Assembly: GCA_034509925.1 (NCBI GenBank) | Contig: CM067530.1 | Coordinates: forward strand, 971,501-1,035,500 | Reading direction: 5' to 3' | DNA length: 64,000 bases | Source: Hirudinaria manillensis | Lineage: Eukaryota; Annelida; Clitellata; Hirudinida; Hirudinidae | Shown: piece by piece, positions 12,828 to 64,000 of the stretch | How the letters are laid out: the number at the start of each line of letters is the position of its first letter | Numbering within the stretch: position 1 is the first letter of the stretch | Translations under genes and position numbers: made by a program | The notes under the pieces: model-generated | Databases searched by the model: none | What the model saw: the letters and a program-made list of their open reading frames with translations, nothing else | Told to the model about the DNA's origin: nothing

Positions 12828-13920
12828 ATGGCTACGGTAGTTTTAGATAATGGCGCGTATTCAGCCAAAATTGGATACATTACTGAAGTCACCCCTAGGT
12901 TAATGTTCTTAACGTTCACTTTAAATAGTCTAATCAAAACTCTTTTTTTGGTTGGAAGAGTATTTAACCCAAATTAGAGCTGCAATGTATAATTAAAGTG
13001 AATTGAAGTACCAAAAAACAATTTCAGGGTCGTACCAAATTGTGTGATAAAAGCAAAAACTGTTCGTAATAGAATTTTTATTGGAGATCAGATTGATGAA
13101 TGCAAGGACTTGTCTGGATTATATTATCTTTTACCATTTCAAAAAGTTAGTTTAATGATATTTATTGATGACACAATATAATTTGATTATTGTATTTTGA
13201 AGGGGTATTTGGTAAACTGGGAGGTGGAAAAACAAGTTTGGGAGCATATGTTTTTCAAAAATGGAATTCAGGTTTGATGAATTATTTACAAAAATTTGTT
13301 TGAATAGTTGTGTTTAGCATGGATTTTTATTCATGATGTCATGAAAGACAATTTTTAGTTTAATTGTTAATTACATGCCAGCTGCTTATTAACATATTGA
13401 AATAAGAAGCAGAAAGTGCCTTAACAATATTTTTGTGAATGTCAATAAATGTATATTTATCTTAAAGTGAAACAAATGAATATTTAAATAATTACTGGTT
13501 TCCAGGTTAATTTTGATGAATCTGGGGTCATCATGACAGAACCATATTTGAACTTTAGATCGGTTCAAGAAGCTGTCGATGAGATTTTCTTCGAGGAATA
13601 CCAAGTTCCTTTCTTCTTAAGATGCAATCGTTCGTTTTACTTCATAATTATTAAATGTTTAATAAATTATACATCAGAATTGTTTATTGTTTTCAAAGAG
13701 AGATTTTTCAGCTCTGCAAGGGCAAGACATATTTCTAAATTGACTTTCTTTTCAGCCAGCTACTTGTCTCAGTACAAAAAGCAGAAAGAAGAGACTCAAA
13801 ATCCATGTTGCGTGATTGTTGATTCGGGATACTCCTTCACTCACATCGTTCCTTATTTCAAAGGGAAACCCCTCAAACAACTATTGAGAAGGTCCTTTTC
13901 TTTAGTCATTTTATATTGTT

Positions 13921-13952
<32 letters not shown>

Positions 13953-16214
13953 GGTAATTAATAATAATAATAATAATAATAATGGTAATAATAATAATAA
14001 TAGTGGTAATAATTAATAATAATAGTGGTAATAATTAATAACAATAGTGTTATTAATAATATTAATAATGGTTTTTAGATAATTTGCATGTTGACCAAAA
14101 TTGGAACATTATAGAACCATTAAATTAAATTTTTTGAAGATTGTCTCAAACTTTTTATATTAAATTTTACTTCCAATTTTGATTTTAAACATTATTTTCA
14201 AAAGACTTAAAACGTGCCTTGCAACGTAAGAACTACTTTTGCAAGAACTACTTTTAAACGATCGATTTACATTTCAATCAGAATTGACGTTGGAGGGAAG
14301 ATGTTGACAAATCACTTGAAGGAGGTGATATCTTACAGGTTATTTATTCTTCTGCATTTATTACTTAATAATAATAATAATAATAATAACGATGATGGTG
14401 ATAATAATGATAATATTAATAATAATAGTAATAATTTTATGTTTTAAAAAAGTTGGTTTGGAATGTAAGTCTTTAACCCAAATTATAGTATAGCAACTTA
14501 AAGTTTTGTACAGATTAACAGTTTACATCTTTTGAATAGAACAATAGGATAATTATTTATCTGTTAATTATATAATAATAATGGATATTAGATCGTGATA
14601 TATATATATATCCATTTACATTTTACATTTATTTATTATCCATTCTCTTGTGTTAAAGAAAATAATTATTGCAATTTATGCCACAACAGACAGCTGATGG
14701 TTATGGAAGAGACACACGTTATAAACCAAATGAAAGAAGATGCATGCTTTGTGTCTCAAGATTTCTATAAGGACATGAACATTGCAAGGTTCAAATTTGG
14801 CATTTGATCCTTAAACAAGAATCTTTTTTTATGAAGATAATCTAAAATCTTTTTTGTCAATAATACTAATAAATTATTAAATAATAATAATCTTGTTATA
14901 GATTAACACTAATGGCCATGCATGCACAAATTAGAATTTTTCTTTTTTTTTTGACGTATTTTAAGTCCGTATTTTTTGAAAAATTAAACAGGAAAAAAGG
15001 ACCGGATAACACGATCGTATGCGACTACGTCCTGCCTGACTACATGAACGTCAAGAGGGGACACATTAAAAAGCCAGACTCGGAATACAACACGTCGCAA
15101 CAAGTAACGTCGTCGCTATTCAAAAAAGCAGACGATCTCGAAAAGAACAACAACAACAACTTAACGTCTGTTCTGTTTGTTTATCGTTGCAGATGATTCG
15201 AATGTGCAACGAAAGATTTGCCATCCCAGAACTTCTCTTCCATCCTTCCGACGTCGGAGTCAACGAGATGGGAATTCCCGAAGCCATAGACCACGTCATC
15301 AGCCAAGCTCCAGAAAGTTATTGTCTTCGTTTTTCTTCCTTCAGTCGCTTTTAAATCTCGGTCGGAAAGTTAATGTAAATAAGAGATCCATCTGGAGATC
15401 ATATTTGCATGTTGATTCAAGTTATGAACATGAAAGTTTATTAATCTATTTAATTTTAATTAATTTTAATTGCTTATTCATAAATGAGAATAAATAATTT
15501 ATTCAAAGTACTTCTTTATGAATGCAGAACTGCAACCTTTCCTCTATCAGAATATAGTTCTCACGGGAGGTAATTGTTGCCTACCAGGGTTTAGGGAAAG
15601 AGTGTGAGTTGTTGTTGTTGTTGTTATTGTTGTTATTCATTATGAGACATTATGCATGCAATCGTTAATGAATATTTGAACAGTTACAAAGATGTCCGAG
15701 CTTTGGCGCCAGACGAGTTTGACATTTCTGTGAAGATAGCAGACGAGTGAGGACGATGTTTTCATTGCATTGATTACATTCCATGCCATGCCATAGGGTG
15801 CCTATCAGCACATCAAATAGAATTTGTTTGTTATGTTGTTATTATTTAACGATAACATGGCTATCAACCGCAGTGCTGTATTTCCATGAAAATTATTATT
15901 TTTTATTGGCATGCATATCATGCATCTGATTTCGTTCATTCAAAAGCAATACTAGAAAATGATTGATTTTATAAAAAAATCAAGGGAAAATAAAACTGTC
16001 AAAATCCACAAATTATAATTGCCTCATTTCGTAGGTAAAGCATAATTATAATGAACGATGTAATCATAACTAACTTTACTTCAGTCCAACAATGGCTTCC
16101 TGGGAAGGAGGATGTCAATTGGGAAACTCTGCTGATCTCCTCAACCTGATTGTCACCAAGGACCAGTATGAAGAATATGGACCCAATATCTGCAGAAAAA
16201 TGTTTGTCCTTTGA
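12828..16214 (+). CDS. ACTR6: Actin-related protein 6 (SWR1/SRCAP chromatin-remodelling subunit)
   Basis: Twelve exons, all phases consistent: 12828-12898, 13028-13145, 13203-13271, 13506-13629, 13756-13891, 14282-14338, 14690-14788, 14992-15103, 15193-15316, 15528-15603, 15684-15746, 16085-16214. The product is 392 residues (human 396). Diagnostic blocks: [14 protein letters not shown] at the N-terminus, [36 protein letters not shown] (phosphate loop), [24 protein letters not shown]-like [37 protein letters not shown], and the Trp-Glu-Gly-Gly C-terminal segment. ARP6 acts in the nucleus in the SWR1/SRCAP complex that deposits H2A.Z. Many donors are GTT-type. Introns 5 and 6 contain AAT microsatellites. 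Poly(A) signal AATAAA at 16259-16264, only 45 bases after the stop. Confidence 0.96.
13929..14067. repeat. Interrupted AAT microsatellite in ACTR6 intron 5
   Basis: Runs of AAT with GGT/AGT interruptions, repeating a 'tggtaataat' pattern. A second AAT tract lies at 14367-14440 in intron 6, so exon 6 (57 nt) sits between two same-direction AAT tracts. Confidence 0.9.
15607..15639. repeat. Short GTT microsatellite in ACTR6 intron 10
   Basis: GTTGTTGTTGTTGTTATTGTTGTTATT immediately downstream of the exon 10 donor (gtgagt at 15604). Confidence 0.85.
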
Positions 16215-42682: not shown

Positions 42683-43935
42683 ATGAAGTTAAAGAATATT
42701 CTTCAATATATTGAAATTGAGATTTTAATTTTGTCTTGGATGACGTTGTGGGTGGTGACAGCCAGTAGGTACATTCTTCTATCTGTTACTTTATTATTAT
42801 TGTTATTATTATTATTATTATTTTATTATTTATTATTATTATTATTATTATTTTATTATTTATTATTATTATTAGTACTATTATTATTATTCTAAAAATA
42901 ATTAACCATCTTTTATTTCAATTTATTTCATGACAGAGCGTCCACAGAACATTCAGAGCCTGGCATATTTGCAAACGTCTGACCGCTGGAGACTGGATCA
43001 ATCAGGATCAGAGATCGTGTCCAATTCCCATTGGCTGCCGAATCGCAGGTCGGTACGACATCATCGCAGGCACGACTTCAATCACCCGATTGATTCGCAT
43101 CAACCGCTCAACCGTCAAACAACCACGACGGAGTACGACGGTTGTCATGGAGACGATGAAGCAGCTAGGAAGACGCTACTGAGGAAGTGCTACTCGTCAC
43201 TGAGGAAGGTGCTCGTTGGGTACTCGAAGCTGCTGAAAGAAGAAGAAAACGACACCAGGATCACGACCTATGACCTCTGCGGGTTAGTCCGTGGTTCCAA
43301 TGATTCGAATAAATCACTTCGAGTTCGAAACGTTATCAATTACGTTTTGCGTGGCTTGAAAATGTTTAACTTTAAGTTAAGTTGCAATTTAATTTATGCG
43401 AATTTATTTAATGGTATTGATCGCAATATTAGTTCAATTAATTAAATAATAATGCAAATTAATCGGTTCATTAACCTTTAATGATGATAACGATGACCTC
43501 CTCTATGATGTGAACCTATGACGTGTGGACGATATTATTATTATCACATAAAGGCACGGGCGAACCCCTCGCCTAACACAAATTACTTAAGTAAACAAAA
43601 AGCAAAACCCTCTACATATCAAACAAACAATAAAACAACCAGTCACATCAAATATTTACAATCCCCAAAAAAATCATCCAATAACATTTTGAAGATGTCC
43701 AGGTTTGGAGCACCGACAACCGACCGAGGAAGATCATTCCACTCTTGGACAACTCTATTGCTGAAAAAAAACTTCCTCAAATCCCTGTGAGATATGACCT
43801 GACCTAATTAAACGATTGGTTTTATGATTGATACCAATCATCTCTAGGATATAGAACCAGACGATTTTAATTCTTTAAATATTTGTATTATTGTTGTTAT
43901 TATTATTATTATTAATATTATTATTATTATCATTA

Positions 43936-43978
<43 letters not shown>

Positions 43979-43985
43979 CATTATC

Positions 43986-44069
<84 letters not shown>

Positions 44070-44696
44070 ATTGAATATCAAATTATTCATTCATATTATT
44101 TTATCCTAATTCGAATTTAACAAGCGATAGAGAGAAAGAGAGAGAGAGAGAAAGATAGAGAGATAGTGAGAGTGAAGGAGTGTAAACCTGTCAGTTATTA
44201 AAATCAGGAAACTCTTCATGACGTGTTACTTGGTCAGCAATTGGTGACGCCCACCTAATTAATGCAAGGTTATCGTATTTCTCAATGTGACGGCTACTCT
44301 CGGACAATAATTATTATGGTTGTAAAATATAATATTTAATTATAATTATTTATAATATAATAATTATTATAATTATATAATATGTTTTATATCAATTAAT
44401 ATAATTTATAATTTTTATTTTCATTTATAATTAATTTTTGTATAGAAATAAAATATATTTTATTTTTATTTTAAATTTAATTTTTATAAAATATAAAATA
44501 TTTTATTATTTATGTTATCATTAATAACTGAATTTAAAACTGAATTTCAAGAACTCAATAAACTGGCAATCAAATTGGAACTGGCAATGAAATTAGAAAT
44601 TCCATGAAATATTTCTTAAATTATAAAAAAACACATTGAAATTCAACAGCAGCATTTATTACATATTATAAATTAATTAGCATTAATTCTTTTATA

Positions 44697-44748
<52 letters not shown>

Positions 44749-45344
44749 TATTCTTTTTGTAAGTGAACAAATCAAAAGTAGGAGGAATATTTGCAAAAAC
44801 ATCATAAAAATAGGTGATGAATGTGCTTCAATTAGTCGTCTTTTGAAGTTGTTGGCAAACGTTGCAGCCTCGGGGCTAAGGAATGATTTCAAAATGATTT
44901 ACAATCGATTTGATCTCAATTGATTTAAAATAATTTAAAATGATTTCAAAATGATTTACAATCGATTTGATCTCAATTGATTTAAAATAATTTAAAATGA
45001 TTTCTTTTCTTTCCATTCTAATTCAAGTGACCTTCGTGACTGTTAACTTGAAACTGGGTCAGTTCAATTTCGTGATTGTCAAGACCGAGATAATATTGAT
45101 GACATGTCATTACAAGGATGGATGAATGGACGAATGGAGGAATGAATGGATGAATGAACGGATCGATGAATGGACAGGTAGATGGAATGACGAACGTCCA
45201 TTGAACTTTTACCAGAGTACAAAGCCACTTGTTACAAGCAGATATGATCAACATTGTGAATTTCCCCCTCCAAAAAAAAAACTACTGCTGAATAGTTGGA
45301 TGGATGCATTAGTATCTATTGATGGATGTATTAGTATCTATTGT

Positions 45345-45375
<31 letters not shown>

Positions 45376-46072
45376 TCGGATGATCAGATGGAGGAGTGCA
45401 ACACACGTAGGAATTCATCCACGAGCAAATGTCTGATTTAAATTGCAAATGTAATCCCAAATACAACGTCGAATGTTGTTCACGGCGGGTTGAAGTGAGT
45501 TTATGGAGAATTAATCAATTTCTATTCCAATTAACCTCATCTCCCTTCCTGGGATTCGAACTCGCGGACCGAAAGACAAACAAACCGAGATGGGAATTCA
45601 TTCATCGCTTCGTCAACTTTTCACCGTGTTGGAAAATTTGTTCTGACACCATTGTTCGGTCCTATTACTTGTTCTTGTTGACATCGTCGTCGTCGTCGTT
45701 GTTGTTGTGATTGTTATTATTATTGTTGTTTTTATTGAATATAGTATAATTAGATATCTTAATAATTAACCAACAATATCACATTATCACCACAATTCAT
45801 TAGCATAATTTATCTTATTGACCTCAACTGTTGCTAGGTATTTCCTATGTACGATAAGTTATCGTTGCAGAAATTTAATCTTAATTGCTTTGTCGTCTTC
45901 AACTGCTGATGATGATGAAGATGATGATGATGGAGACGGCGCCCATGAATTGTGATGTTGATGATGATGATGATGACGATGACGTTGACGACGATGACGA
46001 CGACGAAGATGACGATGATGGTGAAAGAGTTCTCCAGCGACGATATTATATCCTTCAACAATCCGTAACCAA

Positions 46073-46111
<39 letters not shown>

Positions 46112-46650
46112 TGTAATTAATTTTGCATTATTATAATGCTCTGTAAAGATACACAAAGTGGCATCAACGCCTATAATTTTGTCTGAAGATATGACTTGAG
46201 CAAAGATTGGAAAACATTTCTCAAAAGATAATTTAACGTTTTAACAGCAGGCATTGTTCAAAATTATTACGATTTCAAAGATTAAATAAATAATAATAAA
46301 TATATAAATAAATAAACGAATAAAACGAATAAATAATAAGTAAAATAAAACATTAACTGAAATAATTGAACGAAAAAAATAATTTTAAAAAATAAAAAAA
46401 CAAACAGAAGTTCACTTTTAAACCACCAACAACAACAACTCTTGAACATCGAAACCTTCCCGCCAGGAATTTACAAGTCGTGTTCAACAACTGCTCCACC
46501 TCCCTGCTCGGTGATGACGTCATCAGAAGGTGCCTGTCACGTGACAGGACCGTAAAAGGAAAGCTGGAAACGTTCAGCGTTTTGATGGAACATTTTAAAA
46601 ACATCTGCTTCGATGAAGATGCTCATCTTCGTTAGTTGCTAATTCTTGTT

Positions 46651-46691
<41 letters not shown>

Positions 46692-46699
46692 TAATAATG

Positions 46700-46772
<73 letters not shown>

Positions 46773-46831
46773 TAACTATTATCATTATCATTATAATTAT
46801 AATGATAATAATAATAATAATAATAATAATG

Positions 46832-46871
<40 letters not shown>

Positions 46872-48301
46872 TAATAACAATAATTATAATAAATTATTAT
46901 AATTATAATAACCATAATAATAATAGTGATAATAATAATAATAATAATAATAATAGTAATAATAGTAAAAATAATAATAAATAAATAAATAAATTGTTTG
47001 ATGATTAATTTTATGATTGTATTTATAGATAAATAAATGCTTTTTTCCGAATTGTTTAAATTGATTTAAAAGAAAATTAAAAACAATTAGAATTTAAAAG
47101 ATTAAAAAAACAATGAATAATGAATTTTAAACTTCAATGGCTTCGTGTTTTGTTTAAAATTTCATTTCATTTCTCGACTATTTAGTCCTCAGTTTTGAGA
47201 TTTTACGAATTTGTGCGATTTGTTTACAAAATAATTTATAATTTATATTTAATTAAATATTAATAATAATGAATGTTTTAATTATTTCTTCAGCTTTAAG
47301 TTCAATTGTTTTAAACTCGTCAATTGTCAAATCAATTCCTTAACAACTAACTGTGACTTTAACGAAGAGTGCATAATTGAAATGTTTAAATTTAAAAATT
47401 TATTTTAATTAAATAAATATTAATTAAATAAATACTATAAAAAAATTATAAAAATAAATTCATTTTGTATTTTTGAAGACCAACAATCAACAGATATTCA
47501 GTCATGTTTCGTGGATGAATTTCGAGGTACTTTGTCAATCAGGTGTGACGAATATTACGAATTTAATGTCCAACAGGGGACCAGGGATAATTGCTTGTGA
47601 GTCGTTTTGTCATTTCAATCGGTTATAATAATATATTATTATTATAATATAATAATATAATAATAATGTTATAATAATATACTATTATAATGATATATTA
47701 ATATAATAATAATGTTATAATAATATATTATTATAATGATATATTATTATAATGATGTAATTTTTATTCATTAGTCGCATGTCTTATTATAACCAGTTAT
47801 GACGTAATAAATTATTAATAATAATTAGCTGGGATGCTAACCTTACTTTCACTGACTTCCGTTGGTCTGTTCTTTCTGTGTGTGTGTGTGTGTGAGTGAT
47901 TGTGTCTCCTTTTCTTTTTTGGAACAACAACCTCTATGCTTTAGGAAATAATTTATTAAAAACAAAAAAAAAAACATTTTCCTGAAATAAAATGTAAATA
48001 AATAAAAATTGCCTTAAAATTGTGAGAAAAGAAAACGATTGAAAATACGATTCGAATTCATTGGTCACGTGATGTGTTTAAAAGTCGACCTCGGAAAATG
48101 AGGGAAACTCTGGCGTTTGTTGTTTTTTATCTTCAGGTTTGATTTGTTTCCTGTTTTTTTTTTCTTTTTCATTTCTGTTTATTTTTATTTTTTATTTTTT
48201 ATTTTATTTTTTTTTGATTGACTGCCGATTTTTTGTGCTTTTGTTCCGTGTAAGTTGATATGGTTTTACGTTACAAGGTCTAGGAATACATATTTCCTTC
48301 T

Positions 48302-48350
<49 letters not shown>

Positions 48351-49121
48351 GTCATCATTGTCATCGTCATCGTCATCGTCGTCGTCGTCATCATCATCGT
48401 CATCGTCATCGTCATCGTCATCTTCACCCCTTTTACAAATGGATTCTTTCCTTGAATTCCTTTTGATTTCAAAGTCACGTGCACATCGAAAATACTTTTT
48501 ACTTGGACTGTTTGGGTGCGAGAAAATGGTACACGTGTGAAAGTTTAATGCTGAATGACTGAATGAATGAACGAATGAATGAATGTACGAATGAATGAAT
48601 GATGGATGACAGCAATTTCCGCCGTTTTTTACTTTCCATTTCTAAAAACTTTTAAATTTAAAAATCCACTGAACGAGGATGAATTGAAGTTTGCCTGAAT
48701 TCTTGAATGTAAATCTTTTATGTTTTTTTTTGATAATTTCTAAATAATTAAAGTAAATTTCTGGAATTCTCTTTAAATTTATTTCGTAATTTATTTTTTT
48801 TTTAAATTTTAAAACTACCATCAGTAGTAAATCATTGGACAATTATCGCCAGGTTATAAAACTAATTCACCAATTACTATAAAATAAAATATAATAAACA
48901 ATTAATTTATTTCAAAATGTTTTTATTTAAAAAATCCCACTGCAATGGTTTCGGTTTCAGTTTCCTACGCGAGAGGTTCAAATGTCAGGAGTCCCTTTTG
49001 AACTCTGCGTGTGGTCCTCAATCATCGATTGTGAACTTCAACTTTTTGTTGATTCTTTTTGACAAGCAGATATCAGGAAGTAATTGTTCAATCAGAGCAG
49101 ACGATGGAACGTACGACGGTC

Positions 49122-49183
<62 letters not shown>

Positions 49184-50147
49184 TTAATATTAATAATAAT
49201 AATAATAGTATTAATAATAATAATAACAATAATAATTTTATAATAATAACAGTGATAATAATAACAATAATAATAATTTTGTAATAATAATAATAGTAAT
49301 AATAATAATGATAATAATAATAATAATAATAATAATAAAAGTTAATTTGTAGAGCGCCATATGCATATCGTCAGAGGCGCTTTTGTGTCTCTAGTGTAGA
49401 GATGAGTCTTCAGATTAGCTGGGGTTGAGTGATTATTTGTATAATTAATTTTAATCAATATAATTAAATATAATTAAATGTATTTAATATTATTTAATTA
49501 TTTATATTATTTTAATAATAGTAATAATATTGCTTAAGGTTGTTATTATATTAAAAACGTTGCGAAACAGATTCATATTCAGTTTAAACAAAGAATCCAT
49601 AAAAAAAAAATAAAACCATTTTTTTTTAAATCAAAGTCATTGGACTTTGTCGCTGTGAATTTCTTCAAATTAAAGTTGAAATTGCTAAATAATAGGAAAT
49701 AAATTGGAGGTGGAATCATGGTTCATAAATTATGTCTTAAATTGGTGCATGGATGGTCGGAGAGAGGTACGAAAGAAATGTGTTTTGTATAAGAAGATAA
49801 GTAATTTCTGCTTGGTCTGTTCTAACAATATATTGTAAGAACAGCTGCAAATGAATAATTGAATTAATTAATAAAATAAAAAAAAAGAAATTAATGAAAT
49901 GATTAATTATTGAATATTATTGAATATTGAAAATTATTGAATAATTAACTTTAAATCAATTTTTAAATTTCAAATCAATTGATTTTAAATCAATTTTATA
50001 AGTTGGGTTAGTTTATTATGTACAATTAAATTTACCATTAAAGAAACGATTATCAAACAAACTTGGACTTGTTTGAAATAAATACGTCATAATAAAGTTA
50101 AAAATAGTAATTATTAATATTATGACAATAGAAATATTAAATATGGC

Positions 50148-50235
<88 letters not shown>

Positions 50236-50847
50236 TAATAATAATTATAATAATAATAATAACAGCGTTCAGATACGACGACGGTGTTTGCAAGAGAGGC
50301 ATCATAAAACGCCTGGAGTGGTGCACATCGACACACCTGGACGGATCCTTCATCCTGAACTTCCATCCTGATAACGATCTCGTTGCCATTGGAAACCCGA
50401 AGAGAATCCTCAAACTGTGCAGGTTGTCGTCTGCCTGTGTTTTTGTTTTGGCGCGCAATTAAATGCTTGCTTGTTTGCTTCGCTGTTCGTCTGATAAGCT
50501 CTTGAAGAGATTTAAATATTTTTAATATTGTTTAATTTATTATAATTAATCTAATATAATTTTTAATAGCCAATTTAATATTTAATATTATTTGTTATTA
50601 TTATTATTAGCTTTATTAGCTTATGTATAATTAATTAATTAATTACAATTATTCAGTATGATCTCAATATTAAATATAAATATAATTAATAATAAAAGTT
50701 AGTTATATAATTAGTAAATATATTTATATTGCATCTCTGAAGTTGGAATTCTTAGAGAACCTTCACAAGAAATATATTTTAATATTATTCCATAAATTTA
50801 GCTAATAATTGAATTAAAATAGAATAATGAAAAGATAAATAATATCC

Positions 50848-50923
<76 letters not shown>

Positions 50924-51753
50924 TAATATGTTATTCTGTTACAGGGCTTATGAAAATTACAAGAACTGCATCGGTCCAATGAGGACTTTGTGTCCAAAAG
51001 CCGTGTCTTTGTTCCTGGATTATGAATCGAAACTGCATCAATACATGCTCAAGATGGATTTTATTTGCAGTCAACAGGTTATTGAAGGTTCGAATGATTT
51101 AATTACATTTAAATTTACTTAATATTTATAATTAATGGTAATTAATTATAATTAATAATAATAGTAAATAATAATAATATTAATAATTAAATAGTTTTTT
51201 TTATTATTATAGTATTCAATAATATTATACAATAATTATTATCAAATTGTAATAATGTGATTCGTTAAAAATAGCATATTAATGATATTATTATAATCAT
51301 AAATAAGTTTCGCATTAAATCAGACTGCCTTGAAAAACAGTGAACCTGGTTGCCATAGTTACGTAGTTAACGTAGTTATCAGAATGTTTTCAATGGGTGT
51401 TGATAGTGTTTTTAATGCCTAAAATGCTTTCTTAATGTTTTTAATTCCTAAAATATTTTATAATAATTAAAATGTTTTTTTTTTAACTTTTAGCTCTTCA
51501 AATTTGTTTTTAAATGCCTTTAATGTCCTAGTTTTAATTTTTTATTTTTTATTCGTTTTCTACGAATTGAGTATAAATAATTGAAAATAATTCGTCAATA
51601 ATTTAATTTACGATCGAATATTGCAAATTAGCGAATAATTATTGTCACACGGTAGGCAGACGTTTTTTTTAATCCATAATTTGACCTAATTACGTCAACA
51701 TAACATTATGTTGCCACCAAACTTGCCTCGTAAATGCTCAGTTATTAAATAAA

Positions 51754-51785
<32 letters not shown>

Positions 51786-53401
51786 ACAAATAAATAAATA
51801 ATATAATTATCGGATTAAATTAAATTAATTAATTATTCAGTTTATTCATCCAACCTGAAATGCATGAGGTCGACTGTGGCCAAACGACGTTTGTGTGAGA
51901 ATCATTGGTCTCATCTGAATGTTCATCTCCAGAACGTATCTTCAGTTCAATTCTTCTGTCTTCCTAGGGAGTCCAATGTCCTCAAGATGACAAAGTAATC
52001 TGCTTTTCATAGTAATAAGAAAAGTGCTTATAATTAGAAAATTAGAAAATAATAATTAGGAAATAATAATTAATAAATCAAATTAAATTAAGGATTAATT
52101 AGTCTTTTATTTATTTCATCAAACACTAGCTAATTACTGTTTCGATTTGAATTCCGGACTTATTGAAGTTGTTTTTAATAATTAACTGTTAATTCCAATT
52201 TATTTAATTATATTCGATTAATGAATGATAAATTATGACAAACCACGCTCGTCGTCGGACTCCTTGTAGTGGCCATGGTAACACCAAGGGTGTCGTGTTT
52301 CTCTGGCCATCTATCAACTGGTGTTGCCTTGATCTTGTGATGTTGTGCGTTTGTTTCCTATCCTTGATGAGGTGACAAAGTAGTCATTCGCTGGGACTTG
52401 AACTCCACTTCTAAGGATTGATTTCGTCATTTTATTGGTTCTGCCATGCCGACTGAGAATAAGAATACGACAAAGTTGTCACGAGAAAGTAATCTCGTAA
52501 TCTCTCCGTTGCTATGTATCAAAGATGGAACGAAATAAACATAAACGACCATCAAGAATGCGTCTGTAAAACCAAAACATAAAACCAACAGTTATTGTTT
52601 TCTTAGTCGATTGATAGAATAATTGATTAATTAATTAATTAATTTATTTATTTGTTTATTCATTGCAATCAATTTAAGTTATGAATCAATCATTCATTCA
52701 TTCATTCATTAATTCGTTAATTCATCAGCGAACTATCTCACCTACATTCGTGTCACAAGGAAGTATTTACAAAGGAGTGCAGTACAGAAACAGGTCTGAT
52801 GATCATGAAATTCCTTCAGCTGGCTCTTTCAGATCCACTTTACCTCAGGTTCGGTTACAAACCTAACTGTTCCCTCCACGGATTCGAAACCCACAAAATT
52901 CCGGAGGCGGAAATGGACCATCCTTCCGTCATATCCACGAATCCGTTGTTCCTGAATTTCCACTCACATCACCTGTTTCACGACGATGACGATGGAGATG
53001 GTAGTAGTGCTGATGACGATTCCGATATCATCATCACTTCCGGCGAGGAACAGTTCACTTCATCTCCCTATCCCGCCGAACCCAGTCCGACCAAGGTCGA
53101 CCTTTCAGAAGTTCAAGGTCACACGCCTATCGAAGCCGAAGATCACGTGACCGATTCAATCGATTCCTCGGAATTCGGTTTCCTTGACAATTCTAACGAG
53201 TCAACGGATCGAAACCGAAACCAAGCGTCGGTAACATCGTCTGGAAGTGACTTCCAAGAGATGATCATTCCTGTGGAAACAAATAAACTTCCTGAGACGA
53301 ATTTGTCTGTAAATGCTGCAGCAATTTCAAGCTTGACATTTGACGCTTTGTTTTATATGTCAACTGTGTTCTTGTGGTTTGTAAATAGTTTTCTATTGTA
53401 A
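42683..53401 (+). CDS. Secreted, probably GPI-anchored protein with four six-cysteine modules
   Basis: Nine exons: 42683-42764, 42937-43282, 46467-46630, 47479-47596, 48961-49118, 50266-50422, 50945-51087, 51841-51994, 52729-53401; 664 residues. Intron phases run 1,2,1,2,1,2,1,2. Exon 1 is a signal peptide (MKLKNILQY, EIEILILSWMTLWVVTA). Each of exons 2-9 carries exactly three cysteines, 24 in all. Exon pairs 2+3, 4+5, 6+7, 8+9 each form one module: C-x10-14-C-x15-31-C, phase-2 intron, x7-8 (counted from the split codon's next residue), C-x7-12-C-x24 (29 in the last)-C, phase-1 intron. The tail after the last module is acidic (HDDDDGDG) and Ser/Thr-rich, with no Cys. It ends in a hydrophobic C-terminus (SSLTFDALFYMSTVFLWFVN and SFLL), as in GPI-anchor signals. 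Several N-x-S/T sites are present. I know no named family with this pattern; nematode DUF19-like or GFR-alpha-like folds are only loose analogies. Confidence 0.82.
42790..42893. repeat. ATT microsatellite in intron 1 of the six-Cys gene
   Basis: ATT repeats with a repeated ttttattatttattatta block. Confidence 0.9.
43510..43860. mobile_element. Probable dispersed-repeat remnant in intron 2
   Basis: Moderately GC-richer segment starting at an ATT tract (attattattatcacataaaggc). It contains a stretch reading 'gaagatcattccactcttgg', with one frame FHSWTTLLLKKNFLKSL. Similar 'adjacent to ATT, with AAGTTG/GTCTTC blocks' fragments occur at 44760-44890 and 49330-49440. I read these as decayed copies of one or more non-autonomous elements, not exons. 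Confidence 0.4.
43889..44083. repeat. Compound ATT / ATTATC microsatellite
   Basis: ATT units flank a core of about 12 uninterrupted ATTATC hexamers (43950-44010). The minus strand reads poly-Asn/Asp in one frame; not coding. Confidence 0.95.
44118..44180. repeat. GA-rich simple repeat
   Basis: agagagaaagagagagagag followed by gatagagagatagtgag. Confidence 0.85.
44699..44890. repeat. ATT microsatellite with attached repeat remnant
   Basis: About 17 ATT units (44699-44750) followed by 'gtcttttgaagttgttggca' and 'aacgttgcagcctcgg', a wording typical of SINE/MITE-like remnants next to ATT tails. A 60-bp direct repeat (aaaatgatttacaatcgatt) follows at 44890-45000. Confidence 0.6.
45118..45378. 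repeat. GGAT/GAAT tetranucleotide tracts
   Basis: ggatgaatggacgaatggag (45118-45175) and ggatggatggatggat (45345-45376) in intron 2 of the six-Cys gene. Confidence 0.88.
45960..46109. repeat. GAT/GAC tract and ATT microsatellite upstream of exon 3
   Basis: GAT/GAC at 45960-46019 and about 12 ATT units at 46074-46109. The ATT array is complementary to the AAT array on the other side of exon 3. Confidence 0.92.
46650..46985. repeat. Long AAT microsatellite downstream of exon 3
   Basis: More than 300 bp of AAT with GAT, AAC and a central palindromic ATTATCATTATCATTATAAT part. It begins only 20 bases after the exon 3 donor (46631). Confidence 0.95.
47638..47760. repeat. ATAAT/ATATT self-complementary repeat
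   Basis: Degenerate tandem units such as 'gttataataatatattatt' and 'ataatgatatattattataa', in intron 4. Confidence 0.8.
48303..48422. repeat. ATC/GTC trinucleotide array
   Basis: ATC repeats turning into GTC/ATC hexamers at the 3' side, in intron 4. Confidence 0.95.
48548..48605. repeat. GAAT tetranucleotide repeat
   Basis: gaatgactgaatgaatgaac and following GAAT units with CGAAT/TACGAAT variants. Confidence 0.88.
49128..49440. repeat. AAT microsatellite with attached GCGC-type repeat remnant
   Basis: AAT array from just after the exon 5 donor to 49340. It leads directly into 'gttaatttgtagagcgccat', 'gtcagaggcgcttttgtgtc' and 'tagagatgagtcttcagatt', the layout of invertebrate SINE/MITE-like repeats with an AAT end. 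Confidence 0.75.
50150..50265. repeat. AAT microsatellite forming the exon 6 acceptor region
   Basis: About 37 AAT units end in 'taataataataacag', so the repeat itself occupies the place of the polypyrimidine tract of exon 6 (50266). Confidence 0.95.
50849..50928. repeat. ATT microsatellite upstream of exon 7
   Basis: About 26 ATT units ending shortly before the exon 7 acceptor (gttattctgttacag). Complementary to the AAT array before exon 6. Confidence 0.95.
51740..51801. repeat. AAAT tetranucleotide repeat
   Basis: taaataaataaataaataaa with one CAAA variant, in intron 7 of the six-Cys gene. Confidence 0.9.
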
Positions 53402-54670
53402 ACAATTCTTTCGAGGAAATTATGATGATGATTCCATAATTTTGAAACGTATTTATTTCAATAAATTATTTTCAGTGTTTTATAAGATGAAGTATGGAAT
53501 GAAAAGAAATCTGAAATCTTCGGACATTGAAGTAAAATCAGTTTTTGTTAAAAATTCTCTAAATGTTATTTTTCCAAAATTCCAAAATTTTCTGAATTTT
53601 GAAGAGAATTATTCGTACCTGTAGTTTTGCCGCGAGCCGCGTTGAAGTATTTTTTTTACTTTTTTACTAAAAGTATTTTGTCAATTTAAAGCGAAAATGG
53701 GGATCTTTTCCAATAAACGTTTCAGCTTTTCTCTGACATTTTGGGATTTTGTTGGAAAGTATTTGAATTTATTTTTTTTATAAAAATAACAACTTTATTT
53801 GAATTTATTTTTATAAAAATAACAGCTTTATTTGAATTTATTTTTTAAAAAATGAGACGTTAAATCGGGAAAGCGAAGAGAAATTGCTTCCTATCCGTAG
53901 TCATCAATGAATTTTGTTTTCCAGAGATTTTGTTCACTGGTGACTACTTCTTAGAGCACAATAATAGCTTCTTTAACTTATTAAACATTAAAAAATAAAT
54001 TTATTAAAATGTAATCCATTATTTTATTTTATTTTATTTTATTTATTTATTTATTTATTAATTCATGGTAGCCAACAAATGAACTAATTTATGAGTCAAT
54101 TGCTCATGTTTGATTAGTCTTTAATAATAATAATGATGATGATGACCATGATGATGATGATAATAATAATAATAATATGTTTAATAATGTTAATTAACAC
54201 AGCCTACAGTCTGAAACAAGTCTGCCAATCCAGGTTATTGTCCCAAACAAACAAGCCAAAAAAATCGTAATTCGATATTCCCCGTTACACGAGTTCCTTT
54301 TATTTTTATTCATAAAAATTTTATCGTACATCAAACTGATGCCTACGTTGCTGAAAAAAAATGGAGCCGTAAATCATTCCTCAATGAGATTCTGCAGCCT
54401 TAACAACAATAACTTAACTGTAACTTACCGAACGATAGCGTTCGATAACGATTACCACAACTAAACATTCAACTTGTTTTGTGAATCCCAACTGATAAAA
54501 TGATCTTAATGTGTACTTTCACTGAGACACAAGACAAATATAAACAGTAAGTATATATTACATATACTTAATACTTTTAGAATAAGTCATTTTTGCGGAA
54601 TGGAATCACTTTAGAGTTTTCCGATGGGATTTTTATTCCACCAACATTAAATGGGGACTTACATAAAGGA
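53402..54670. other. Intergenic region downstream of the six-Cys gene
   Basis: AT-rich. Contains 3'UTR candidates (AATAAA near 53459) and an A/T-rich direct repeat of about 30 bp (ttgaatttattttttataaaaataac) at 53765-53850. A GAT/AAT tract lies at 54125-54178. No gene recognised. Confidence 0.45.
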
Positions 54671-57775: not shown

Positions 57776-58650
57776 AATAAGTAATTGTCCCGCAATTTGT
57801 TTATTACCTAGTTTGTCAGCTAGGGTAAAATAAGTAACTAGTGCAATTTCTATATAAACAAATTCTAACGAAGTTTCAGAAATTCTAAACAGAAGTTTGT
57901 TTTAACTATCGGTTCGGATCCGTCATTTGACGATGCCGCCTTTTCTGAGTATCCAGTTGTTTAAAAGGTCGTGTCACAGTTTTCGCAAAGATATTCTCTA
58001 TGAAGTCTCAACATATGGCCGCGATAGAGTTCGGAAGTCTCAAAAGTTTTGTTGCAAGTAGAACATTTCCACTTACAAGCACTGGCTTGCATAGCTGAGT
58101 TGATTACTTTTCTGCATTCGATTTCTGGGATCGTCTCAATCTTCGGACTTTCAGCATTTGCCTATTTCACCTTCCACTCTGTGATATTTTATCGGGTGGT
58201 TTCAGAGCGTGTTGCCGTTGAACCGGGCAGAATAAGTAATTGTCCCGCAATTCGTTTATTACCTAGTTTGTCAGCTAGGGTAAAATAAGTAACTAGTGCA
58301 ATTTCTATATAAACAAATTCTATATACAAACAGAAGTTTGTTTTAACTATCGGTTCGATCCGTCATTTGACGATGCCGCCTTTTCTGAGTATCCAGTTGT
58401 TTAAAAGGTCGTGTCACAGTTTTCGCAAAAGTAATCTCTATGAAGTCTCAACATATGGCCGCGATAGAGTTCGGAAGTCTCAAAAGTTTTGTTGCAAGTG
58501 GAACATATCCACTTACAAGCACTGGCTTGCATAGCTGAGTCGATGTTTTTTCTGTTATCGATTTCTGGGATCGCCTCAATCTTCTTGGGATGTTCGGCAT
58601 TTGCCGAAGTTGCAGTTCCTATTTCGCCTTCCACCCTGTGATATGGCTAG
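57776..58650. repeat. Tandem duplication of a ~455-bp unit
   Basis: The block beginning 'aataagtaattgtcccgcaa' at 57776 recurs at 58231 with high similarity to about 58640. Shared landmarks are ttagtttgtcagctagggta-like sequence, 'gacgatgccgccttttctga', 'caacatatggccgcgataga' and 'acaagcactggcttgcatag'. The left unit has lost about 14 bases near 58165 relative to the right one. Confidence 0.92.
58401..58634 (-). CDS. Truncated C2H2 zinc-finger ORF (right copy of the duplication)
   Basis: A 77-codon minus-strand ORF from ATG 58634. The C-terminal half holds one intact C2H2 finger, CSTCNKTFETSELYRGHMLR-LH, followed by the start of a second (CENCDTTF) that ends in a stop. In the left tandem copy (about 58170 to 57960) the same finger is present with a few substitutions, but a short deletion upstream breaks the frame. 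Probably the fossil end of a multi-finger or transposon-associated zinc-finger gene. Nucleic-acid binding is the usual role of such fingers. Confidence 0.5.
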   Translation of the reverse strand: MEGEIGTATSANAEHPKKIEAIPEIDNRKNIDSAMQASACKWICSTCNKTFETSELYRGHMLRLHRDYFCENCDTTF

Positions 58651-58795: not shown

Positions 58796-59600
58796 TAGGG
58801 CCAGGGTTACACCTCTTGGAATTGGGAGAAAAGCTGGGCTGACGTCCACCTGAAGGACTGCCAACCCCCACCACAGAGGCCTCCACCACCCTGCTGGACT
58901 CATCATGGTCGTCTCTGGCAGAGGGTCTGCCGCAAGGCGTACGAGCGGCCAGTCTGGGACTTCCCAGGTAAAGAAAAGGACTCCGGTCCCTCCCGCGGTG
59001 GCTCCAGCCTCCAAGACAACCGATCCACCAGGCACCTACATCTTCACCGTCCCCTTTGACAGCTCAGAGAAGCAATCTAGGCTAAAAAGGCAACCGGAAC
59101 TACCAAGTCAAACCCACCCGCCGCCAGCAAGCAGCAAGCCTCGCTCGAAGCCACAGATGGAGCACCCGCTGGTCCCCCCAACCAGACCATACTGAGCTGA
59201 TCCAGCAGATAACTGACTGACGCAGCAAGAGTTGGACTCGCTCATGAGTGGCCTGACCTCAACCATCAGGGGGATCATCGGGTCCACGCCGTCACCAAAA
59301 CTGAACACCTCCAGTTAAGGCGCCCTGTGACCAGCCCCAGGCCCAGCAGCAAGACAAAACTAGGGAAGCCACCCGTATCCAAAGGCTCTTTCGTTACAAC
59401 ATGAAAGAAGCTTTTAGGCAGATAACGGAAACCCCTAGCCCAAAATGCGCGATACCACACGAGGTCATCGCCAATCATTTCGCCCCACCTTCCTTAATCC
59501 CTTTCACCCCATCCCTCACGTCCCAGGTGCTATGGTGGTTAGCTCAAATGTGCCAAAGGCATCACATCGAAGTTGTTTTAAAAATCGAAATAATTTAGTG
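58796..59600 (+). mobile_element. Decayed fragment of an RLE-type (R2/NeSL-like) LINE
   Basis: Markedly GC-richer and Pro/Ser-rich, unlike its surroundings. The best-preserved part, open at about 59310-59598, reads QQDKTREATRIQRLFR, YNMKEAFRQITETPSPKCAI, PHEVIANHF. This is the 'R-I-Q-x-L-[YF]...R-x-[IL]-x...P-x-C-x-I-P...HF' region that precedes the reverse-transcriptase domain in R2-like elements. Upstream frames are interrupted by stops; the reverse transcriptase itself is missing. An ORF at 58905-59195 contains GTYIFTVPFD and many Pro/Lys, perhaps the N-terminal region. The piece leads directly into the satellite array that carries the LINE 3' end. Confidence 0.65.
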
Positions 59601-62600
59601 GACGATTGCCCCTTGTCTGGAGGCTTGCCCATGGGATCATACAAATTTACCCTTCCCTTAACCACGTGAACAACAACGGCTCTGATTAATATTTATATCG
59701 AAGTATCTCAGATCATGGTGAGCATGCTGCTCTCTCTATCCTTAAGATTTTTTTAACCAATACAACGTGCCAGATTTAACGTCGTAATGCTCTTGGCTGT
59801 GGATAAGCCTTGAGATATTATTATTATTTCCATTACTCTTCTCCCACTTACTCATAGGCCAGCCCTGGGTCAAGCACGACCGCAGATGCGGCGCCGCATG
59901 CGAAATCCTGGGCCACATTCTGTGTGGATGTAAACCCAATCTGGCAATGGCCACTATCCGTCATAACGCCATAGTCGACGAAATTGATTCCGGCGACTAA
60001 CCTACGCCTGAATCAACAGGTTCCCTTAACTCTTTCTTCTCTCCAATTTTGTAATAGAATTAAATCAATTTCAAAGGTGTTTTGTTATAACGCCGGATAA
60101 AACATCCAAGGTTAAATAACATGCCTATCAACGAAAATTGTAATTTAACAACAGTATTTCCAATACGAGACTGTTTTGCAATCATCCTTCATAGTCAGGA
60201 TTTTTGTCATGAATAACAAAGCCTTCCATGATGGGAGTCAGGGCTTTATCTACAAGTAAATCAACCAAGATATCATTTATACAAGTTGCTGATATATAAT
60301 CTACAAATCATAATTATAGAATAGCATGTATTGGCATATAAAAATTCTGCATTTATAACTGTCAACCTGTCTTTGCCAATGCTATGGTGGTTAGCTCAAA
60401 TGTGCCAAAGGCATCACATCGAAGTTGTTTTAAAAATCGAAATAATTTAGTGGACGATTGCCCCTTGTCTGGAGGCTTGCTCATGGGATCATACAAATTT
60501 ACCCTTCCCTTAACCACGTGAACAACAAATACGGGAAAGTGGTTTGTGCAAATTAAGGGTAAAAATGGTATATGTTTGTGGAATTGTGTCCCAGTTTCTC
60601 TTGAAGTTGCAGGTGAAGACCATACTGTCCACGTAGCACGATTACATTAGACTGTGCTATTATGTTGTACTATATACAATTAGACATTGATGTAGCCGTT
60701 GTCCTGGAAAGGTCTTCTAATCTAAGGATTGCAACATTTCAATGGCTCTGATTAATATTTATATCTAAGTATCTCAGATCATGGTGAGCATGCTGCTCTC
60801 TCTATCCTTAAGATTTTTTTAACCAATACAACGTGCCAGATTTAACGTCGTAATGCTCTTGGCTGTGGATAAGCCTTGAGATATTATTATTATTTCCATT
60901 ACTCTTCTCCCACTTACTCATAGGCCAGCCCTGGGTCAAGCACGACCGCAGATGCGGCGCCGCATGCGAAATCCTGGGCCACATTCTGTGTGGATGTAAA
61001 CCCAATCTGGCAATGGCCACTATCCGTCATAACGCCATAGTCGACGAAATTGATTCCGGCGACTAACCTACGCCTGAATCAACAGGTTCCCTTAACTCTT
61101 TCTTCTCTCCAATTTTGTAATAGAATTAAATCAATTTCAAAGGTGTTTTGTTATAACGCCGGATAAAACATCCAAGGTTAAATAACATGCCTATCAACGA
61201 AAATTGTAATTTAACAACAGTATTTCCAATACGAGACTGTTTTGCAATCATCCTTCATAGTCAGGATTTTTGTCATGAATAACAAAGCCTTCCATGATGG
61301 GAGTCAGGGCTTTATCTACAAGTAAATCAACCAAGATATCATTTATACAAGTTGCTGATATATAATCTACAAATCATAATTATAGAATAGCATGTATTGG
61401 CATATAAAAATTCTGCATTTATAACTGTCAACCTGTCTTTGCCAATGCTATGGTGGTTAGCTCAAATGTGCCAAAGGCATCACATCGAAGTTGTTTTAAA
61501 AATCGAAATAATTTAGTGGACGATTGCCCCTTGTCTGGAGGCTTGCTCATGGGATCATACAAATTTACCCTTCCCTTAACCACGTGAACAACAAATACGG
61601 GAAAGTGGTTTGTGCAAATTAAGGGTAAAAATGGTATATGTTTGTGGAATTGTGTCCCAGTTTCTCTTGAAGTTGCAGGTGAAGACCATACTGTCCACGT
61701 AGCACGATTACATTAGACTGTGCTATTATGTTGTACTATATACAATTAGACATTGATGTAGCCGTTGTCCTGGAAAGGTCTTCTAATCTAAGGATTGCAA
61801 CATTTCAATGGCTCTGATTAATATTTATATCTAAGTATCTCAGATCATGGTGAGCATGCTGCTCTCTCTATCCTTAAGATTTTTTTAACCAATACAACGT
61901 GCCAGATTTAACGTCGTAATGCTCTTGGCTGTGGATAAGCCTTGAGATATTATTATTATTTCCATTACTCTTCTCCCACTTACTCATAGGCCAGCCCTGG
62001 GTCAAGCACGACCGCAGATGCGGCGCCGCATGCGAAATCCTGGGCCACATTCTGTGTGGATGTAAACCCAATCTGGCAATGGCCACTATCCGTCATAACG
62101 CCATAGTCGACGAAATTGATTCCGGCGACTAACCTACGCCTGAATCAACAGGTTCCCTTAACTCTTTCTTCTCTCCAATTTTGTAATAGAATTAAATCAA
62201 TTTCAAAGGTGTTTTGTTATAACGCCGGATAAAACATCCAAGGTTAAATAACATGCCTATCAACGAAAATTGTAATTTAACAACAGTATTTCCAATACGA
62301 GACTGTTTTGCAATCATCCTTCATAGTCAGGATTTTTGTCATGAATAACAAAGCCTTCCATGATGGGAGTCAGGGCTTTATCTACAAGTAAATCAACCAA
62401 GATATCATTTATACAAGTTGCTGATATATAATCTACAAATCATAATTATAGAATAGCATGTATTGGCATATAAAAATTCTGCATTTATAACTGTCAACCT
62501 GTCTTTGCCAATGCTATGGTGGTTAGCTCAAATGTGCCAAAGGCATCACATCGAAGTTGTTTTAAAAATCGAAATAATTTAGTGGACGATTGCCCCTTGT

Positions 62601-64000
62601 CTGGAGGCTTGCTCATGGGATCATACAAATTTACCCTTCCCTTAACCACGTGAACAACAAATACGGGAAAGTGGTTTGTGCAAATTAAGGGTAAAAATGG
62701 TATATGTTTGTGGAATTGTGTCCCAGTTTCTCTTGAAGTTGCAGGTGAAGACCATACTGTCCACGTAGCACGATTACATTAGACTGTGCTATTATGTTGT
62801 ACTATATACAATTAGACATTGATGTAGCCGTTGTCCTGGAAAGGTCTTCTAATCTAAGGATTGCAACATTTCAATGGCTCTGATTAATATTTATATCTAA
62901 GTATCTCAGATCATGGTGAGCATGCTGCTCTCTCTATCCTTAAGATTTTTTTAACCAATACAACGTGCCAGATTTAACGTCGTAATGCTCTTGGCTGTGG
63001 ATAAGCCTTGAGATATTATTATTATTTCCATTACTCTTCTCCCACTTACTCATAGGCCAGCCCTGGGTCAAGCACGACCGCAGATGCGGCGCCGCATGCG
63101 AAATCCTGGGCCACATTCTGTGTGGATGTAAACCCAATCTGGCAATGGCCACTATCCGTCATAACGCCATAGTCGACGAAATTGATTCCGGCGACTAACC
63201 TACGCCTGAATCAACAGGTTCCCTTAACTCTTTCTTCTCTCCAATTTTGTAATAGAATTAAATCAATTTCAAAGGTGTTTTGTTATAACGCCGGATAAAA
63301 CATCCAAGGTTAAATAACATGCCTATCAACGAAAATTGTAATTTAACAACAGTATTTCCAATACGAGACTGTTTTGCAATCATCCTTCATAGTCAGGATT
63401 TTTGTCATGAATAACAAAGCCTTCCATGATGGGAGTCAGGGCTTTATCTACAAGTAAATCAACCAAGATATCATTTATACAAGTTGCTGATATATAATCT
63501 ACAAATCATAATTATAGAATAGCATGTATTGGCATATAAAAATTCTGCATTTATAACTGTCAACCTGTCTTTGCCAATGCTATGGTGGTTAGCTCAAATG
63601 TGCCAAAGGCATCACATCGAAGTTGTTTTAAAAATCGAAATAATTTAGTGGACGATTGCCCCTTGTCTGGAGGCTTGCTCATGGGATCATACAAATTTAC
63701 CCTTCCCTTAACCACGTGAACAACAAATACGGGAAAGTGGTTTGTGCAAATTAAGGGTAAAAATGGTATATGTTTGTGGAATTGTGTCCCAGTTTCTCTT
63801 GAAGTTGCAGGTGAAGACCATACTGTCCACGTAGCACGATTACATTAGACTGTGCTATTATGTTGTACTATATACAATTAGACATTGATGTAGCCGTTGT
63901 CCTGGAAAGGTCTTCTAATCTAAGGATTGCAACATTTCAATGGCTCTGATTAATATTTATATCTAAGTATCTCAGATCATGGTGAGCATGCTGCTCTCTC
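59529..64000. repeat. 1,066-bp macrosatellite array (five units, continuing beyond the window)
   Basis: Units start (at 'tgctatggtggttagctcaa') at 59529, 60380, 61446, 62512 and 63578, the last cut by the window end. Units 2, 3 and 4 are exactly 1,066 bp and look identical base for base. Unit 1 is 851 bp: it lacks a 215-bp block present in the others (about 60528-60743) and has a few substitutions (for example gcccatgg for gctcatgg). The spacing of the identical 70-codon minus-strand ORF (59742, 60808, 61874, 62940) confirms the period. Confidence 0.97.
59845..59999 (+). pseudogene. LINE endonuclease zinc-knuckle remnant, repeated in every satellite unit
   Basis: On the plus strand one frame reads LIGQPWVKHDRRCGAACEIL, GHILCGCKPN, IRHNAIVDEI and a stop. 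This matches the C-terminal motif of RLE-type LINEs (CRxC...ETLxHILxxC...RHNxVV), with the first Cys replaced by Asp. Identical copies lie at 60911, 61977 and 63043. The minus-strand ORF over the same bases (70 codons) is a shadow. Not functional by itself: no reverse transcriptase, and an upstream stop within 110 bases. Confidence 0.65.

Follow-up and report, generated by a model that had tools for sequence, protein, structure and literature searches.

A leech gene that appears to encode a putative cell-surface protein of four cysteine-rich modules, each spread over two exons

Introduction

What kind of protein is built from a six-cysteine module that recurs four times with almost no shared residues, and can the layout of its gene point to relatives that its sequence does not? 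This question is raised by a locus of the leech Hirudinaria manillensis that lies within a window (the whole stretch of DNA analysed, 64,000 nucleotides long) corresponding to positions 971,501 to 1,035,500 of the forward strand of contig CM067530.1 in assembly GCA_034509925.1; coordinates given below without a contig are positions in this window. The original prediction for this DNA described a nine-exon gene for a secreted protein, in which each of four modules is split over two exons with alternating intron phases, and knew of no described family with such a layout. In the present analysis, the gene appears to encode a putative cell-surface protein with four cysteine-rich modules, each carried by two exons, and the sequence of the protein has no match among known families. 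The layout itself is not unprecedented, as it is found in part of the GFRalpha-like domains encoded in the same genome.

The nine-exon gene and its cysteine pattern

The exons of the nine-exon model were rebuilt from the letters of the window. All lie on the forward strand, and when spliced they form one open frame of 664 amino acids with 24 cysteines, with GT and AG at the borders of all eight introns. Exon 1 (42683..42764) contains no cysteine, codes for a putative signal peptide (MKLKNILQYIEIEILILSWMTLWVVTA) and ends in phase 1. Exon 2 (42937..43282) comprises a linker and the first half of module 1 (Cys 97, 112 and 142) and ends in phase 2 directly after a cysteine, while the second half of this module (Cys 152, 165 and 190) is encoded by exon 3 (46467..46630), which ends in phase 1 at a weak donor (CTTC/gttagt). 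Module 2 is formed by exon 4 (47479..47596; Cys 207, 220 and 236) and exon 5 (48961..49118; Cys 245, 254 and 279), and module 3 by exon 6 (50266..50422; Cys 298, 309 and 341) and exon 7 (50945..51087; Cys 350, 358 and 383). The first half of module 4 is located on exon 8 (51841..51994; Cys 397, 408 and 429), where the split codon lies 12 codons past the last cysteine, and its second half on exon 9 (52729..53401; Cys 449, 458 and 488), which continues into an acidic, Ser/Thr-rich stalk and a hydrophobic C-terminal tail before the stop codon TAA. A polyadenylation-type signal, AATAAA, is present on the same strand at 53460..53465, its start being 59 bases beyond the last base of the stop.

The regularities that had been proposed for this gene were recovered in the rebuilt model. 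Exons 2 to 9 hold three cysteines each, with none in exon 1 or in the stalk, and the introns run through phases 1, 2, 1, 2, 1, 2, 1, 2, so that phase 2 falls within the modules and phase 1 between them without exception. As had also been claimed, the phase-2 intron follows directly upon a cysteine codon in modules 1 to 3 (TGC GG, TGC TT and TGC AG), the next cysteine stands 9, 8, 8 and 8 codons into the following exon, and the last spacing of the module is 24, 24, 24 and 29. Taken from module 1 to module 4, the cysteine spacings are (14, 29), (12, 15), (10, 31) and (10, 20) in the first halves and (12, 24), (8, 24), (7, 24) and (8, 29) in the second halves, and the two halves are separated by 9, 8, 8 and 19.

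Absent from the earlier description is a further regularity of exons 3 to 9, in which the first cysteine is found 9, 9, 8, 8, 8, 7 and 8 codons past the split codon, that is, within 7 to 9 codons in all seven; exon 2, which includes the linker, is the exception with 69 codons. As this distance is the same after either kind of intron, both kinds sit alike relative to a three-cysteine unit, and this shared position allows the protein to be viewed as eight three-cysteine units in four pairs. A range of at most two codons for the first cysteine occurred in a fraction of about 1e-5 of 400,000 random placements, three cysteines in each of eight exons have a probability of 9e-7 given the real exon lengths (7e-5 after trimming of exons 2 and 9) and the equality of three of the four last spacings one of 0.005, all of these being figures that presuppose the nine-exon model, which may have been picked partly for its pattern.

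The alternation of phases makes tandem duplication of a two-exon cassette, as originally suggested, the natural reading of the gene, since a cassette flanked on either side by phase 1 could be duplicated in frame, while a single exon running from phase 1 to phase 2 could not without breaking the frame. The residues, on the other hand, do not show such a duplication. MAFFT left the cysteines unaligned in untrimmed halves and modules, and a cysteine-anchored comparison was therefore used, in which the similarity beyond the cysteines was at chance level both among the first halves (z 0.59; 1364 of 5000 shuffles scored at least as high as observed) and among the second halves (z 0.85; 993 of 5000), and weak or marginal when all eight units were taken together (z 1.78; 224 of 5000).

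Putative signal, stalk and hydrophobic tail

Windows of 17 residues with a hydropathy above 1.6 occur exclusively at the two ends of the protein (residues 9-26 and 648-664). The first of these stretches runs to V-T-A at the exon-1 junction, and the second (53348..53398, forward strand) comprises the last residues of the protein. Glycosylphosphatidylinositol (GPI) signals consist of small residues followed by a terminal hydrophobic tail, and N-A-A-A at residues 636-639, upstream of the tail, is a candidate attachment site. The earlier view of a secreted, probably GPI-anchored protein is thus consistent with the restriction of strong hydropathy to the two ends, the type of anchor being itself a prediction. 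Between the modules and the tail, the stalk (residues 491-640, about 150 residues) is composed of 21% aspartate plus glutamate and 21% serine plus threonine. Seven N-glycosylation sequons are present in the protein, including three N-C-S at module cysteines.

Searches for relatives

Pfam scans with the whole protein, each of its four modules, five phase-2-shifted fragments (of which one combines two of the others) and trimmed versions of the four modules revealed no significant family, at a limit of E 10 under which the HMMER filters nevertheless remove most lines above about 0.1. The only lines obtained were below the cut-off, namely CPG4 (E 0.85, whole protein), AllG (0.14) and WRC (0.18). 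No family was found in NCBIfam, and the whole protein had no match in PDB at E<=10. A PDB search with a profile of the eight trimmed units returned four chains of USP7 at E 1.3-1.7, which were taken as chance. Among viral contigs, seven stretches matched a pattern and none was confirmed by tblastn.

The genome assembly searched comprises 148,429,096 bases in 23 contigs. No second copy was detected when it was searched with the 411-residue module region (E<=10), the eight places among the best candidates scored all being the gene's own exons, and module 3 alone likewise retrieved only its own two exons among the best candidates scored. A leech six-cysteine GFR-like protein was not among the entries listed in the literature searches, which is no proof that none is published.

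GFRalpha-like loci in the same genome

Exons for GDNF/GAS1 (GFRalpha-like) domains were located at two places in the same genome, with four matches, one of which exceeded the cut-off when taken exon by exon. On contig C5 (10436115-10440900) there is a GFRalpha-like gene with the second half of a domain D0 and domains D1 to D3, while the second locus, on contig C4 (13039898-13045997), has two domains, C4_1 and C4_2, and the first exon seen there carries a hydrophobic leader. The domains were spliced by eye, and in this form C4_2 (E 5.8e-8), C4_1 (5.7e-7) and D3 (1.9e-7) matched PF02351. The first half of D1 shares 48% of its residues with C4_2 (E 3e-5), and its second half gave a sub-threshold PF02351 line (E 0.019). 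Three partial leech domains of 47-70 residues gave E values of 0.0012, 0.019 and 0.17 against the same profile, all under the curated cut-off. The four assembled domains have 10 cysteines each, C7 and C8 being separated by a single residue.

A phase-2 intron was observed inside three of the six GFRalpha-like domains seen: in C4_2 (donor CTT/gtgagt, acceptor tcttgcag/C), in D1 (donor TTG/gttggt, acceptor aaag/G) and, by the acceptor alone (ttttcag/T), in C4_1. A phase-1 donor of good consensus lies soon past the last cysteine in all five second halves found by pattern (D2 not included). These splice sites were selected from several candidate GT and AG dinucleotides for their consensus and fit, and the two-exon layout with phase 2 inside is what was observed in this leech, not a published family criterion. 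The window gene and these three domains therefore have in common two exons with a phase-2 intron inside, and the phase-1 introns between the window modules have their counterpart in the phase-1 donors that follow the domains in the leech loci.

The architecture of the whole protein offers a further likeness. Drosophila Gfrl has been described as a GPI-anchored protein in which a signal sequence and four GFR domains are combined with a long linker (PMC3527400), and the window protein is similar in its putative signal, four modules, stalk and hydrophobic tail. The C5 locus of the leech, which has parts of four domains, is comparable to the four reported there (PMC3527400).

Possible function and descent

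It is possible, at somewhat less than an even chance, that the window protein is a GPI-anchored co-receptor working like GFRalpha, maybe as a far-diverged relative. Were the anchor type, a helical fold, the disulfides, the descent and the function to be deduced from the likenesses described above, the gene would specify a secreted protein tethered to the cell surface by a C-terminal GPI-type lipid anchor, and its four modules, of some 100 residues and three disulfides apiece, would sit atop the acidic Ser/Thr-rich stalk. In the manner of the GFRalpha/GAS1 co-receptors, these modules may bind ligands, either a secreted factor or an adhesion molecule nearby. As no part of the protein would reach the cytoplasm, it would have to work through binding, as a co-receptor, an adhesion partner or a ligand trap, with the signal relayed by a partner protein. 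Because the cassette of the window gene, in which phase-2 introns lie inside the modules and phase-1 introns between them, is also used by GFRalpha-like domains of this leech, the gene may be a far-diverged GFRalpha offshoot, in which C1, C3 and C5 of the first half and C6, C7 and C10 of the second half would have been kept and C2, C4, C8 and C9 lost. In this regard, the C5-C6 gap of 5-7 in the leech GFR domains resembles the 8-9 residues between the two halves of the window modules (19 in module 4), and their C7-C10 gap of 23-27 resembles the last spacing of 24-29.

Several results weigh against a GFRalpha origin. By the defining tests the protein is not a member of the GFRalpha-like family: its modules have 6 cysteines instead of 10, lack C7-x-C8 and contain no C-x(1-6)-C, and neither the whole protein nor the modules, shifted fragments or trimmed modules gave any PF02351 line. 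The C6-C7 gap would be 7-12 in the window modules compared with 15-16 in GFR domains, and the best fit of the window pattern to a six-cysteine subset of GFR was no better than that of 1467 out of 5000 random patterns, a number that fell to 769 out of 5000 when the intron restriction was imposed. The cysteines retained would, moreover, break what we take to be the disulfide pairs of GFRalpha1. In shuffles that preserve the cysteines, the similarity to the four leech domains was not above chance for the second halves (z 1.38; 272 of 3000) or the first halves (z 0.39; 1060 of 3000), in a test that is not very sensitive, given that leave-one-out controls with the four GFR domains themselves ranged over z 0.75-4.70 for second halves, the lowest value coming from one true second half, and 1.67-3.76 for first halves. 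For modules 1 to 4, the number of shuffles out of 300 that reached the observed score was 17, 32, 231 and 239 in profile searches, 103, 157, 27 and 111 in local alignment and 10, 167, 196 and 45 in global alignment; overall these comparisons count against a relationship, the single ones that lean towards GFR being those of module 1 (global 10/300, profile 17/300) and module 3 (local 27/300). As to gene structure, the layout is not universal among the leech domains, as the acceptor of D0 appears to be in phase 1 and the introns of D2 and D3 lie at positions unlike those of D1. With residue, profile and cysteine-pattern tests failing, the resemblance to GFR rests on gene layout, module number and the two hydrophobic ends.

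On balance it is unlikely, though worth setting out, that the modules represent an unnamed annelid extracellular domain of six cysteines and two exons, which would be an old GFRalpha cassette with three re-wired disulfides, present four times in a GPI-anchored co-receptor. If so, the layout of the gene would have outlived all recognisable sequence. More generally, if the modules were GFRalpha-type folds, the phase and position of introns would trace descent after the loss of sequence and most disulfides, which would offer a practical route to such receptors where profiles fail, and the window gene would join the two GFR-like loci found here as the third in a leech. If they were not, the protein would be a secreted orphan, notable for the tidy repetition of two exons in its gene and of concern chiefly to annelid specialists.

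Alternative explanations

Nearly as likely as the GFRalpha reading, and likewise at less than an even chance, is that the extracellular modules make up a separate family with no relationship to GFRalpha. In that case a two-exon cassette flanked by phase-1 introns would have been duplicated in tandem, and the same layout would have been reached independently, as in Ly6/uPAR. This would agree with the lack of support for any known family from residues, profiles or cysteine pattern. Close cysteine pairs are typical of the LU domain of Ly6/uPAR proteins, and in this the window protein differs, the closest pair of cysteines anywhere in it having a spacing of 7; it differs likewise in having 6 cysteines per module where the plesiotypic LU domain has 10, and PF00021 gave no line for the whole protein, modules or fragments in the Pfam scans; a separate search with PF00021 had no match even for its controls and is uninformative. 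With regard to gene layout, Ly6/uPAR genes are described as having a signal exon followed by two exons per domain, generally with phase-1 flanks, also in multi-domain GPI proteins (PMC6600238). Two exons per module flanked by phase-1 introns are thus shared with the window gene, and together with the three of six leech GFRalpha-like domains they contradict the original statement that no described family with this layout was known. Since phase-1 outer introns occur also in these unrelated modules (PMC6600238), the outer layout can presumably arise more than once, which is a further point against reading descent from GFRalpha into it. What speaks against a separate family is that the inner phase-2 intron lies near the middle cysteines in the window gene and the three leech GFR-like domains alike, and that four modules followed by a tail are the architecture reported for insect Gfrl (PMC3527400). 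A quite improbable alternative is that the protein is of the proteoglycan or egg-coat type, GPI-anchored and akin to the CPG4/DUF19 proteins of nematodes, and that its acidic stalk bears glycosaminoglycan chains. The basis for this is the sole whole-protein Pfam line (CPG4, residues 335-404) and the Ser-Gly pairs, two of which, out of four in the protein, are in the stalk (residues 545 and 612), that at residue 545 amid acidic residues. However, the CPG4 line (10.6 bits against a cut-off of 32.7) is not significant and was not repeated in modules or shifted fragments, and the CPG4 profile, when run against the genome, pointed to two other places (E 0.34 and 1.59) and not to the window gene; around those two places no comparable exon series was seen by eye among frames of at least 45 residues with at least three cysteines. 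For DUF19, there was no Pfam line for the protein, and a genome search had no match, but the controls were unmatched too.

It is improbable, if conceivable, that the gene model is partly wrong and that a missed or false exon makes the pattern of three cysteines per exon look too clean. The exons have a GC content of 0.32-0.53 compared with 0.12-0.31 in the introns, and a codon score, for which 18 coding stretches from this genome with a total of 4152 codons (14 of protein kinases and 4 of haemoglobin linkers) served as the training set, was above zero for seven of the nine exons (2, 3, 5, 6, 7, 8 and 9), reaching +41.5 bits for exon 2. In a local ranking of AG/GT pairs within 60 bases, the splice pair of the model came first for five of the seven internal exons (2, 3, 5, 7 and 8) and was fourth of 48 for exon 6, at most 0.3 bits off the best; these results, together with eight introns that join in frame and phase without exception, argue for the model. 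In favour of an error are the scores of exon 4 (-0.9, about zero) and exon 1 (-7.4), which are no better than background, and the weak donor of exon 3. Exon 4 ranked sixth of 14 for its splice pair, and an alternative in-frame acceptor at 47494, which scores higher, retains the phase and the three cysteines. A crude dynamic-programming gene finder never gave the full nine-exon chain, which, when the program was restricted to positive-scoring sites, it could not contain; with relaxed thresholds and seven intron penalties, its best chain was always above the nine-exon chain (from 118.0 against 80.1 up to 259.7 against 176.1). It omitted or trimmed weak exons and inserted others, some of them in microsatellites and a repeat, which lessens the force of its ranking. 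In addition, intron 8 could accommodate, in matching phase, a candidate extra exon with four cysteines (52270-52371), whose surrounding stretch was detected at a single place in the genome, and this candidate is a point against the four-module gene as drawn. Intron 2 contains a non-coding dispersed repeat (43540..43791) that occurs at no fewer than 40 places, its own included, with 99-100% identity (the best 40 of 106 candidates scored), and this multiplicity speaks against a candidate exon at that place; on the minus strand, the repeat presumably resembles the end of a long interspersed nuclear element (LINE) reverse transcriptase.

Other features of the window and genome

Elsewhere in the window, a homeodomain exon, POU-like by eye, is found at 938-1387 on the forward strand (E 2e-16), and an actin-family exon at 13488-13961 on the same strand (E 1.2e-10). 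A stretch of about 0.4-0.5 kb was seen twice by eye, the two copies sharing a 24-mer that lies at 57844 and 58299, 455 bp apart. From 59530 to 64000 there is a tandem array with a unit of 1066 bp, which continues to the end of the window; three markers recur in it at exactly 1066 bp, over three intervals each, and one of them is also present 852 bp ahead of the first.

In the genome at large, the erythrocruorin-linker family, an annelid family, had eight matches, of which seven exceeded the cut-off. Among the best 118 of 1248 candidates, protein-kinase domains that lie in single open frames were also noted in tandem arrays: at least 26 at a spacing of about 1.9 kb and with near-equal scores on contig C8 (3218655-3267020), at least 8 domains at about 1.8-2.1 kb on contig C11 (8124348-8138257), and many frames of 329 or 651-660 amino acids on contig C6 (8645517-8695013).

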